Below are positions 6,091-55,035 of a stretch of DNA of 64,000 nucleotides, piece after piece. How positions within the stretch are numbered: the first letter of the stretch is position 1; the number at the start of each line of letters is the position of its first letter. Where the stretch lies: assembly GCA_947074275.1 (NCBI GenBank), contig CAMTPA010000004.1, forward strand, positions 1-64,000, in the 5' to 3' direction. The translations under genes were made by a program, and so were the position numbers. The DNA comes from an uncultured Bacteroides sp. GTDB lineage: Bacteria > Bacteroidota > Bacteroidia > Bacteroidales > Bacteroidaceae. Under the pieces are notes generated by a model. The model was not told the DNA's origin and searched no databases. It saw nothing but the letters and a program-made list of their open reading frames with translations.

Positions 6091-6469
6091 GCTGTTTCTT
6101 GCTAAGTTTTATATATTGTCTTCTAATAATTGACTGTGTGGATGAACGTTGGTTGTATATGCTCTTGATGAGTGTTAACATCTGCCTTGTGGAGTGTTAA
6201 TAACCATCGTGCCAACTGTTCACATTCGAAAGAACAACTGTTCATAGCTGACACACCTTGCTACGAATCGTCTGCTCGTTACTTTCGGAAGCAAATATAA
6301 CAGGAACAAAAAAGGTATGCTTTTCTCTGTATTACAGATATTTTATCGTATATTACATCTTTTGGATGGTTGTTTTAGTGCAATGTACTGTATGTAACAC
6401 CTTGTTTTGTAATACTTTGAAAATGAGGTGTTTGTGGTCTGTATTTTGTAACCTTCAACCCTCTTTGCT

Positions 6470-6557
6470 GGCAAGAGCTACCCACCACGGTGGCAAGGGC
6501 TACCTACCGTGCTGGCAAGAGCTGTCTACCACAGTGGCAACAGCTATCCACCAACTT
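6470..6557. repeat. Four-copy 22-nt tandem repeat array (dispersed family, minus orientation)
   Basis: TGGCAA occurs at 6470, 6492, 6514 and 6536 (exact 22-nt period). Reverse-complement units read GGTGGATAGCTGTTGCCACTGT / GGTAGACAGCTCTTGCCAGCAC / GGTAGGTAGCCCTTGCCACCGT / GGTGGGTAGCTCTTGCCAGCAA. Confidence 0.9.
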
Positions 6558-42583: not shown

Positions 42584-43460
42584 ATCACTCTTTCGCCTTG
42601 CGATTGCCCTTGTGGCCATTGTGGTGTGGCAACTCTTTGCACCGCAGGTTTCTGCACAAGATTCGTTATCGGTAGCGACTCATCAAGTGGCGCAAATAGA
42701 CACGATTTCTTTCGACGAACCTCCGCTGCCACTTCCTTTTCCTGTTATCCCGTTCGAGGTGATTGAAAATAATCTGATAAATAGCCAGCAAAACGACGTG
42801 CTTTGGGAGAAAATAGCTCGTAGCCTAAATGACAACAACCGAGATAGTATTCGTATTATACACATTGGCGATAGCCACGTGAATGGAGGTACTTATGCCG
42901 AAACTGCTGGCGAACTGCTGAAATACGATTTGGGCAGAGTGGTACACAAATCCTTTGGCATCAACGGCGCCACCTACCTTTCGTTTGCCAAGCCGATGAA
43001 CTTGAAAAAAATCACCGACTTCAATCCCGATTTGATTATTGTATCTTTTGGTACCAATGAAAGTTATGGCAAGCACTACAATGCGCAAACACACTATCGG
43101 CAGATAGACAATTTTATTTCTCAGCTTCGAGCGCGTCTGCCTCGTGCCACCATTCTGCTCACCACTCCTCCGGGTAGTTATCTGCGTGGACAAATTAAAA
43201 ACCAGAAGAGAAGATACGTACACAACCCCAACACGCTGAAAACCGCCGAAACCATCAAACGCTATGCCGACAAGCACCGCTTGATGGTGTGGGATTTGTA
43301 TGCCGTGGTGGGAGGCTCTGAGGGAGCTTGCAAAAACTGGTTGCAAGCTGGGATGATGTACAAAGACTATGTACACTATTATGCCAAAGGCTATGCTTTG
43401 CAAGGTCAGCTACTATACCAAGCCATAATGAATGCTTATAAAAACTATGCAGACAACTGA
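42573..43460 (+). CDS. SGNH/GDSL hydrolase (MBOAT cassette protein 3)
   Basis: Signal peptide; IGDSHVNGG, SFGTNESYG, YKDYVHYYAKGY: GDS, GTN and DxxH blocks all present. Confidence 0.85.
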   Translation: MENKSLFRLAIALVAIVVWQLFAPQVSAQDSLSVATHQVAQIDTISFDEPPLPLPFPVIPFEVIENNLINSQQNDVLWEKIARSLNDNNRDSIRIIHIGDSHVNGGTYAETAGELLKYDLGRVVHKSFGINGATYLSFAKPMNLKKITDFNPDLIIVSFGTNESYGKHYNAQTHYRQIDNFISQLRARLPRATILLTTPPGSYLRGQIKNQKRRYVHNPNTLKTAETIKRYADKHRLMVWDLYAVVGGSEGACKNWLQAGMMYKDYVHYYAKGYALQGQLLYQAIMNAYKNYADN

Positions 43461-44934
43461 TTTTAATATTGATCGGCTTTTAAACCTGTTGGCCTACAAT
43501 CCGCAATCGCCCATTATCTTCAGTAGTGGCTTGTTCTTGTGGTTGTTTGCTTTCTTTATGCTTGTCTATGTGGCTTTGCGTCACAAGTACACGGCACGTG
43601 TGGTGTTTGTCATCCTCTTTTCTTACTATTTCTACTACAAAAGTAGCGGCAACTATTTCTTCTTGCTCGCTTTGGTCACCTGTGCCGATTTCTATTTGGC
43701 TCGTTGGATGAACGGCATCGAGACTCTTTGGAAACGGAAAAGTCTGGTGGCTCTTAGCGTGTCGCTCAACTTGGGGCTGCTTTGCTACTTTAAGTACACC
43801 AACTTTTTTGGTGGAGTGGTGGCATCGCTTATGAGCACCGAGTTCACCTCGTGGGAAATCTTTTTGCCTGTGGGCATCTCGTTTTTCACATTCCAGTCTA
43901 TGAGCTACACCATCGACATTTATCGTCGACAACTCACGCCACTCAACAGTTTGCTCGATTACGCCTTTTACGTATCCTTCTTCCCGCAGTTGGTGGCGGG
44001 TCCCATCGTGCGTGCTCGCGATTTTATTCCACAGATGCACCAGCCCTTGCAGGTGACGCAAGCTATGTTTGGGCGTGGCATATTCCTCATCGTGGGTGGT
44101 CTGTTCAAAAAGTGCGTCATTTCCGATTACATTAGCATCAACTTCGTCGATCGCATTTTCGACAATCCCACGCTCTATTCGGGGGTAGAAAATTTGCTGG
44201 GTGTCTATGGCTATGCGATGCAGATTTATTGCGATTTTTCGGGATACAGTGATATGGCAATCGGCATTGCGCTATTGCTGGGTTTTAAGTTCAATCTCAA
44301 CTTTAACTCACCCTACCAATCGGCATCCATCACCGAGTTTTGGCGTAGGTGGCACATCTCGCTTTCCAACTGGCTGCGCGACTACTTGTACATCTCTTTG
44401 GGTGGAAACCGTCACGGCAAGTTTCGCCAATACCTCAATCTCATCATCACGATGTTTTTGGGAGGATTGTGGCACGGCGCATCTTTCAACTTCGTGTTTT
44501 GGGGCATCTTGCACGGGTGTGGATTGGCGGCTCATAAAATGTGGATGTCCCTGACGGGTAAATCCAAAGATGAGCAATCGCACGGATGGCGCAGAGTGTT
44601 TGGGGTGATTGTTACCTTCCATTTTGTATGTTTGTGCTGGGTGTTCTTTCGCACCGCCGATTTTCAACACGCCACCGATATGCTTGGGCAGATAGCTACC
44701 GATTTCCGTCCCGAACTTTTCGTTCCGCTCATATCGAGTTATCAAGCGGTGTTTGTGCTTATTGCGTTGGGCTATTTGCTGCATTGGATTCCACAAAGCT
44801 GGGAAGATGAGGCTTGCGCCGAAGTGAGCCGAGTGCCGTTTGCAGCCAAAGCTTTGCTACTCATCATCGTCATCTATATGGTGGTGCAGATAAAGAGTGC
44901 CGATGTGCAGCCGTTTATTTATTTTCAATTCTAA
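43450..44934 (+). CDS. MBOAT-family O-acyltransferase (AlgI/DltB-like)
   Basis: VGISFFTFQSMSYTIDIYRRQLTP, FPQLVAGPIVRARDFIPQ, YCDFSGYSDMAIGIALLLGF, EFWRRWHISLSNWLRDYLYISLGGNR, GGLWHGASFNFVFWG. The track start is 43432; an in-frame ATG (MQTTDF) lies at 43450. Confidence 0.95.
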   Translation, partial: QTTDFNIDRLLNLLAYNPQSPIIFSSGLFLWLFAFFMLVYVALRHKYTARVVFVILFSYYFYYKSSGNYFFLLALVTCADFYLARWMNGIETLWKRKSLVALSVSLNLGLLCYFKYTNFFGGVVASLMSTEFTSWEIFLPVGISFFTFQSMSYTIDIYRRQLTPLNSLLDYAFYVSFFPQLVAGPIVRARDFIPQMHQPLQVTQAMFGRGIFLIVGGLFKKCVISDYISINFVDRIFDNPTLYSGVENLLGVYGYAMQIYCDFSGYSDMAIGIALLLGFKFNLNFNSPYQSASITEFWRRWHISLSNWLRDYLYISLGGNRHGKFRQYLNLIITMFLGGLWHGASFNFVFWGILHGCGLAAHKMWMSLTGKSKDEQSHGWRRVFGVIVTFHFVCLCWVFFRTADFQHATDMLGQIATDFRPELFVPLISSYQAVFVLIALGYLLHWIPQSWEDEACAEVSRVPFAAKALLLIIVIYMVVQIKSADVQPFIYFQF

Positions 44935-44947
44935 GCAAATAGATTCA

Positions 44948-45041
44948 GTTTGGTAGCTATGCCTACTCGGCGCGGTAGACAGCTCTCTCCAGCGTGGTAG
45001 ATAGCTCTCTCCAGCACGGTAGATAGCTATAGCTACCAAAC
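44948..45041 (+). repeat. 22-nt-period array bounded by perfect 13-bp inverted repeats (same family as 6470-6557)
   Basis: GTTTGGTAGCTAT (44948-44960) / ATAGCTACCAAAC (45029-45041) perfect inverted repeat; GGTAG units at 44952, 44974, 44996 and 45018 (exact 22-nt period). Confidence 0.92.
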
Positions 45042-45065: not shown

Positions 45066-45521
45066 CTATTGGTGAGTGGCCAAACGCTGCATTGCCAGAT
45101 CCTCGTATTTGGTGCCCGGACGGCCATAATTGGCATACGGATAAATGGAAATTCCACCACGGGGAGTAAACAATCCCGTCACCTCGATGTACTTAGGATT
45201 CATTAGTTTGATAAGGTCTTTCATTATCACGTTTACACAATCTTCGTGAAAGCCGCCGTGATTGCGAAAGCTGAACAGATAAAGCTTCAAGCTCTTGCTC
45301 TCCACCATTTTCACATCGGGCAGGTAGCTGATGCGGATTTCGGCGAAATCGGGTTGGCTGGTGATGGGGCACAGGCTGGTGAACTCGGGGCAGTTGAAAC
45401 GCACCCAATAATCGTTCTCAGGGTGTTTGTTGTCGAACGCTTCCAGCACTTCGGGAGCATAGTCTTGTTTGTATTCGGTGGTGCGTCCCAGTAGAGACAA
45501 TTGTTCTTTTAAATCTTCCAT
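45066..45521 (-). CDS. queF: NADPH-dependent 7-cyano-7-deazaguanine (preQ0) reductase
   Basis: [53 protein letters not shown]. Confidence 0.97.
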
Positions 45522-51158: not shown

Positions 51159-51863
51159 ATGATGAAGATAGTGCATAGAGCGGAAACTCGCGGACGTTCT
51201 TGTAATAACTGGTTGAGAAGTTACCACACTTTTAGCTGCGACGATTATTACGATGCCGAAAGAATCAACTTCGGTGCTTTGCGTGTGCTGAATGACAACC
51301 GCATTGCGCCGGGTATGGGCTTTAGCATACACCCACACAAAAATATGGAGATTGTCACCATTCCACTCAAGGGGGAGTTGCAACACGGCGACAGTAAAAA
51401 AGTACACTCGGTGATTGGGGCCAACGATGTGCAAGTGATTAGTGCAGGAACAGGGATATTTCATAGCGAAACCAACGGTAGCAAAATCAATCCCGTAGAG
51501 TTTCTTCAGATATGGATTATGCCGCGCGAACGCAATGTACACCCCAATTATCAGAGTTGCAACTTGAGCGATTTGAAAACCGAAAATGGTGTGACGCTTA
51601 TTGCATCGCCCGATGAAATGGCTCCTATGTCGTTGCTGCAAGATGCTTGGATATCGGTATATAGCGGTGTAGAAAATGAAACCTTGCAATATCAGCTAAA
51701 CCAATCGCACAATGGAGTTTATCTTTTCCTGATTGACGGGGAGGTGTTGGTGGGCGATGTGCTACTGAAAAAACGCGATGGAATGGGACTTTCCGAAGTA
51801 AACAATTTTGAGGCGACGGTAGTGAAAGATGCTCATCTGCTACTTGTCGAAGTTCCAATGTAA
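51159..51863 (+). CDS. Pirin-like bicupin protein
   Basis: FGALRVLNDNRIAPGMGFSIHPHKNMEIVTIPLKGELQHGDSKK, GTGIFHSETN. Confidence 0.93.
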   Translation: MMKIVHRAETRGRSCNNWLRSYHTFSCDDYYDAERINFGALRVLNDNRIAPGMGFSIHPHKNMEIVTIPLKGELQHGDSKKVHSVIGANDVQVISAGTGIFHSETNGSKINPVEFLQIWIMPRERNVHPNYQSCNLSDLKTENGVTLIASPDEMAPMSLLQDAWISVYSGVENETLQYQLNQSHNGVYLFLIDGEVLVGDVLLKKRDGMGLSEVNNFEATVVKDAHLLLVEVPM

Positions 51864-52014
51864 ACACTTTGCGCGATAAACGTGAACAGTTGATTTGTAG
51901 ACTGTGCATATCCATTCCGATAACTATTAACAGTAGAAAACCAAACTAAGTAGCACCGTAATTTTGTTATTCAATAAAATAATGAGTAATATTGTGGCAT
52001 TAACTTATTGAACG

Positions 52015-54848: not shown

Positions 54849-54916
54849 TTGGTAGATAGGCCTTCTCAGCGCGGTAGGTAGGCCTTGCCAGGTCGGTAGA
54901 TAGGGCTGTCTACCAA
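54849..54916 (+). repeat. 22-nt-period array with imperfect terminal inverted repeats (same family as 6470-6557 and 44948-45041)
   Basis: GGTAG units at 54851, 54873 and 54895 (22-nt period); TTGGTAGATAG (54849-54859) / CTGTCTACCAA (54906-54916) inverted repeat. Confidence 0.88.
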
Positions 54917-55035
54917 GCGGGGTGGGTATAGCTAATTCTGCGATACCGTAAAAATCTATTTTTATATGTGTGGCATTGAGTGTATATTTGTGGAGTATCG
55001 TATTTTATAAGTAGAAAAACATAAAGACAATTGAT

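Follow-up and report, generated by a model that had tools for sequence, protein, structure and literature searches.

A dispersed array of quasi-palindromic 22-bp units in an uncultured Bacteroides sp. and a diverse class of 22-bp-period intergenic arrays in Bacteroidota

Introduction

Among described systems, the closest relative in kind of the array reported here is the BrickBuilt MITE of Porphyromonas gingivalis (PMC4596501). BrickBuilt is intergenic, is present in 19 dispersed copies and consists of 23-nt tandem repeats for which dyad symmetry is mentioned; its sequence is restricted to the species. Long stem-loops are predicted for it, its units number from 1 to 22.8, strains differ in unit number, and the element has leader and tail segments and IS5-type ends (GAGACC...). 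PMC4596501 also cites direct repeats of 41, 23 and 22 nt in P. gingivalis W83. The 22-nt repeats among them are, like ours, described as tandem and in a Bacteroidota genome.

GTAG REPs are palindromes of 20-40 bp that have a GTAG foot outside the pairing and are tied to transposase (RAYT) genes (PMC3733652). GTAG repeats are listed in Proteobacteria, Cyanobacteria, Chloroflexi and the PVC group, and not in Bacteroidetes (PMC3733652). In the open-licence literature, we found no description of a class of 22-bp arrays in Bacteroides.

Like BrickBuilt, the family described here is made of tandem repeats that are intergenic, dispersed and capable of folding into long stem-loops. The differences lie in unit length (22 nt at all 115 spacings, in place of 23 nt), in the ends (TTTGGTAG or TTTGCTGG, in place of IS5-type ends) and in unit number, which is near-fixed at four. 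Moreover, whereas BrickBuilt has a leader and a tail, we saw neither here, nor a target duplication. With REP and BIME sequences of the GTAG super-family it has in common short intergenic palindromes, many copies and GTAG near the ends. However, GTAG here lies inside a quasi-palindrome and in a 22-bp register, the unpaired foot on a single hairpin is absent, and no Y1 transposase was found. As in MITEs, there are terminal inverted repeats (13 bp and perfect in the copy studied, variable in others), but no target-site duplication was seen.

Results

Structure of the array and its neighbours

The window (the whole stretch of 64,000 nucleotides that was analysed) contains a non-coding element of 94 bases at 44948-45041. 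Its inverted ends of 13 bp, GTTTGGTAGCTAT (44948-44960) and ATAGCTACCAAAC (45029-45041), are perfect reverse complements, and the span TTGG...CCAA is 90 nt. Unit starts fall at 44951/44952, 44973/4, 44995/6 and 45017/8, TRF detected the array with a period of 22 and a score of 97, and an imperfect single hairpin is predicted for the whole. The earlier note had described four exact 22-nt-period units between perfect inverted ends. The ends and the period are as described; the units have the exact period in common and are not identical in sequence. The features are as follows.

44948..45041, no strand assigned: whole element, a GTT 3-nt flank, four 22-bp units and an AAC 3-nt flank
44951..44972, minus strand: unit 4 of the polar element, which reads TGGTAGCTATGCCTACTCGGCG on the plus strand; element polarity on the minus strand
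44973..44994, minus strand: unit 3 of the polar element; element polarity on the minus strand
44995..45016, minus strand: unit 2 of the polar element; element polarity on the minus strand
45017..45038, minus strand: unit 1, the distinct end unit with a TATAGCTA-type centre; element polarity on the minus strand
43432..44934, plus strand: left neighbour, MBOAT acyltransferase, converging on the array
45066..45521, minus strand: right neighbour, QueF (queF), converging on the array
6466..6553, no strand assigned: copy 1 of the GGTAG family, four units, ends TTTGCTGG / CCACCAA
54850..54915, no strand assigned: copy 3 of the GGTAG family, three clear units
about 54916..54937, no strand assigned: decayed fourth unit of copy 3, AGCGGGGTGGGTATAGCTAATT

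The array thus lies, as had been proposed, at a convergent junction (MBOAT and queF). Copy 3 had been taken for an array of 3x22+2 nt; its three clear units are there, and the decayed fourth unit follows them.

A dispersed intergenic family

Searches of the 3.34-Mb assembly bear out the claim of a dispersed family: 47 distinct arrays of the GGTAG family, to which the array at 44948-45041 belongs, were examined in detail and further ones were seen, over fifty copies in all. Essentially all are intergenic; three overlap short ORFs, which we take to be spurious. The flanking genes are in mixed orientation (20 tandem, 10 divergent, 9 convergent), and among the arrays examined we saw neither an orientation bias nor a preference for the 3' ends of genes.

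The unit is a quasi-palindrome with the halves nGSTRGMWAGG and CCTWKCYASCn, in which GTAG is included and is present again in most units. Half-units are of two types, GGTAGATAGG and GCTGGCAAGG. Halves that adjoin across a unit junction are of opposite type in 90 cases and of the same type in 5, so the array is in effect a hetero-palindrome repeated directly, with ends that are inverted. The termini read TTTGGTAG or TTTGCTGG. TTGGTAG commonly stands at both of them, though not in every copy, and many copies end in TGCTGG. The earlier note had tied the family to TTGGTAG/CTACCAA ends together with the unit-length rule: the ends are missing in some copies, whereas the 22-nt rule holds in all copies examined.

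The first 40 relatives gave no match to the family at E <= 0.01. Among 160 genomes of the genus (G handles; presumably Bacteroides), the query from the own family found clear look-alike arrays in G149 only, and a query derived from G149 found them in G150 as well. Several other weak matches in congeners lie inside genes and are due to chance. An exact-pattern scan for the GGTAG family in a set of genome contigs that may leave out close records found none, and none was found in IMG/VR or among the PLSDB plasmids.

Spacing, unit number and polarity

The spacing between units of the GGTAG family in this genome is exactly 22 in 115 of 115 cases, and not one half-site lies 1-3 bases off register. 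This regularity accompanies considerable divergence, since random units of the family are 70% identical (about 30% divergent). Two units of one array resemble each other no more closely than do units taken from different arrays (identity 0.71 vs 0.70), which argues against recent slippage.

When arrays were aligned with orientation and unit offset left free, they proved polar: at one end stands a weaker unit, with a TATAGCTA-type centre, and the three units after it are strong. Four clear units are present in 23 of 46 aligned arrays. A decayed fourth unit is kept in 13 of the 22 three-unit arrays, copy 3 among them. This is a count of scores above zero, a level that no control flank reached; because orientation was picked by fit, the opposite flank is a biased standard of comparison. 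Most arrays of related type in G149 and G150 have four units as well. The GGTAG-family array is therefore close to a fixed four-unit element, and the free growth and shrinkage by whole units that the earlier note had read into these copies finds no support in this family.

These features bear on the view that the arrays are neutral minisatellites, made by replication slippage and hairpin-templated switching, with the period of 22 inherited from ancestral arrays. The GGTAG units are no more alike within arrays, lack indels of 1 to 3 bases in either direction and are near-fixed in number at four, none of which fits this view well. In other families the number of units is variable, as neutral minisatellites would have it.

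A wider class of 22-bp-period arrays

A sequence-blind scan for self-matches at lags 10 to 69, covering about 790 kb from 15 genomes (the own genome and 14 congeners), gave 31 clusters at lag 22, 18 at lag 44 and at most 6 at any other lag. Some of the scanned regions had been picked near known arrays, and the scan was therefore redone on 400 kb of the own genome sampled regardless of arrays. There were now 22 clusters at lag 22 and 9 at lag 44, and no lag outside the multiples of 22 had more than 4. The lag-22 signal is far above chance, and the density of arrays in this sample is about 1 per 14 kb. In it are at least four 22-bp families unrelated to one another: GGTAG, GAAAC/GTTTC, TCAACTGTTAACAGTTGA-like and TTCTCA/TGAGAA. 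Compared with column-permuted nulls, 18 of 37 arrays have dyad symmetry at p<=0.05. Other families of Bacteroidales (257 kb) yielded one such array. No array with clear dyads was found in 400 kb of other classes and phylum members, and no such array in 50 kb of E. coli.

For the GAAAC/GTTTC family, 84,980 species genomes were scanned with a two-unit pattern that permitted periods of 14-34. Of the 44 pattern matches in Bacteroidota, 36 have period 22, and periods 21 and 23 account for 4 each; the eight matches outside Bacteroidota are spread over 20-29, with one at 22 (a Treponema MAG). When whole arrays were traced in the Bacteroidota loci and in stretches of the relatives' genomes, the spacing was 22 in 199 of 220 cases, 21 in 11 and 23 in 10, a tracing in which some two-unit chains are chance. 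The number of units varies between species (2-10, once 18). The hosts include Bacteroides, Porphyromonas, Prevotella, Parabacteroides, Segatella and Chryseobacterium, with named species among the first four genera. The intergenic 22-bp-period arrays of Bacteroidota are thus a class that is diverse in sequence. That all of these unrelated families share the period 22 is not expected of neutral minisatellites.

Further arrays were seen along the way. A second, unrelated 22-nt family (approximately TCAACTGTTCACATTCATCGTG) lies in the window at 6162-6227 and 51857-51893 and has 18 matches in the own genome; for the TCAACTGTTCACATTCATCGTG-like motif, 13 of 14 matches in array loci are within 350 bp of a GGTAG array. 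Elsewhere in this genome (L318:13668) there is a tandem 22-nt family, GAGAACTTTTTCTCA, and a Bacteroidales MAG (L301:7229) has an 18-unit GAAACCTAGGTTTC array in the 22-nt register.

Transposase, terminator and RNA

The inverted ends (TTTGG/CCAAA) and the dispersal of the family would suit a classical MITE moved by a DDE transposase acting on the 13-bp inverted ends, and in another species a multi-copy element, bounded by inverted repeats of about 135 bp, encloses a 22-nt array. However, target-site duplications were not found at the arrays, and the ends vary (TGGTAG or TGCTGG). A trans-acting transposase had been suggested by the earlier note. A search of the own genome, whose assembly is 92.6% complete, for Y1_Tnp / RAYT (PF01797) found none, with positive controls; no transposase with matching ends was seen in this search, which covered Y1 only. 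We consider a classical MITE quite improbable.

The arrays could instead act as RNA, their transcripts forming hairpins with a role in termination, in 3'-end protection or as a small RNA. In favour of this, arrays fold with a mean z of -4.0 relative to their dinucleotide shuffles, against -0.2 for the control, and the window copy has a z of -4.6 when folded as DNA. But real arrays fold no better than chimeras, which do equally well or better, and there is no RNA covariation at paired positions, where G-T pairs are not clearly above A-C mismatches. Foldability thus follows from the quasi-palindromic units and is no evidence of RNA function. An anti-correlation of symmetric positions is due to hetero-palindromes read in both orientations and not to selection. 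The window array has no terminator-like site (a hairpin with a T-run), and Rfam 15 gave no match above the gathering score at the array, the one match in the window being a tRNA. Ten arrays lie between divergent genes, which also fits RNA poorly. The terminator activity suggested by the earlier note therefore gains nothing from the sequence, nor from any preference of arrays for 3' ends. There is no sign of RNA-level constraint, and we regard an RNA-level element as highly improbable.

Change at orthologous sites

Change by a whole unit was seen in another family only. At a site with conserved flanks (L154:5256-5410 in G021), the array is identical in G062, and in G173 it is shorter by exactly one 22-bp unit. 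The same site has an unrelated 22-bp array in G001 and another inverted-repeat element in G174 and G052, and its spacer is inverted in G009 relative to G047. The loss or gain of one unit in G173 and the inverted spacer are what slippage and template switching could produce. Weighed together with the fixed register, neutral minisatellites nevertheless seem to us an improbable account of the arrays. The spacer that is inverted between G047 and G009 (L230 and L247) is the 9 nt between array half-sites (GTGCCCCGG vs CCGGGGCAC), and the arms are kept.

At a second site, the GAAAC array of G021 is enclosed in an element whose inverted ends measure about 135 bp, and G062 has a bare, unrelated 22-bp array. 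The G021 element (L154:8210-8750) is MITE-like and about 540 bp long, its ends of about 135 bp surround the GAAAC 22-nt array, and there are many copies in G173 and G051.

Unrelated 22-bp arrays also lie 3' of the MBOAT gene in G086 and G147, and in G150 an unrelated array is present in 5 of 16 readable flanks. Arrays occupy about 15% of gaps of at least 150 bp, so the G150 count is only suggestive and not decisive. Such unrelated arrays at the same intergenic sites of relatives, including L154:5256-5410, could mean that the arrays are binding sites for chromosome-organising or regulatory proteins, kept by host selection, with dispersal secondary. The fixed spacing and the near-fixed unit number of the GGTAG family agree with this. 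On the other hand, no gene orientation is preferred, the sequences are wholly different within one genome, and the G150 flanks add little against their base rate. We think a host-functional array unlikely, though it deserves some weight.

Discussion

Tentatively, and with confidence a little short of even, we take the window array to be a copy of a non-coding DNA element that is dispersed in the genome, is built of four 22-bp quasi-palindromes, has a geometry recognised by a protein and belongs to a wider class in Bacteroidota. The element probably acts as double-stranded DNA. Its dyads follow one another at intervals of 22 bp, close to two turns of the helix, so that a dimeric protein could sit on each of them along one face. 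We suspect that a putative trans-acting factor that requires the 22-bp geometry copies or retains such elements, which would spread non-autonomously and would last in those intergenic sites that tolerate them. Any gain from the elements might go to the host or to the element itself.

Several observations count against a protein-read DNA element of this kind. Neither a target duplication nor a Y1/RAYT transposase was found in the 92.6% complete assembly. With four or more unrelated families in a genome, either several proteins would be required or a single one that recognises shape and not sequence. The variation in unit number in other families (2-10, once 18) resembles that of a slippage minisatellite, and spacings of 21 and 23 nt occur in the GAAAC/GTTTC arrays (21 of 220).

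It is possible, although we hold it to be doubtful, that Bacteroidota have a sequence-independent 22-bp ruler. One putative machine that binds or copies DNA would then read dyads two helical turns apart and would shape many unrelated intergenic families, several in each genome. Should conservation lie in the geometry and not in the sequence, common gut bacteria may have a widespread protein or mode of copying that has been overlooked, and this would help to explain the repeat-rich intergenic gaps in these genomes.
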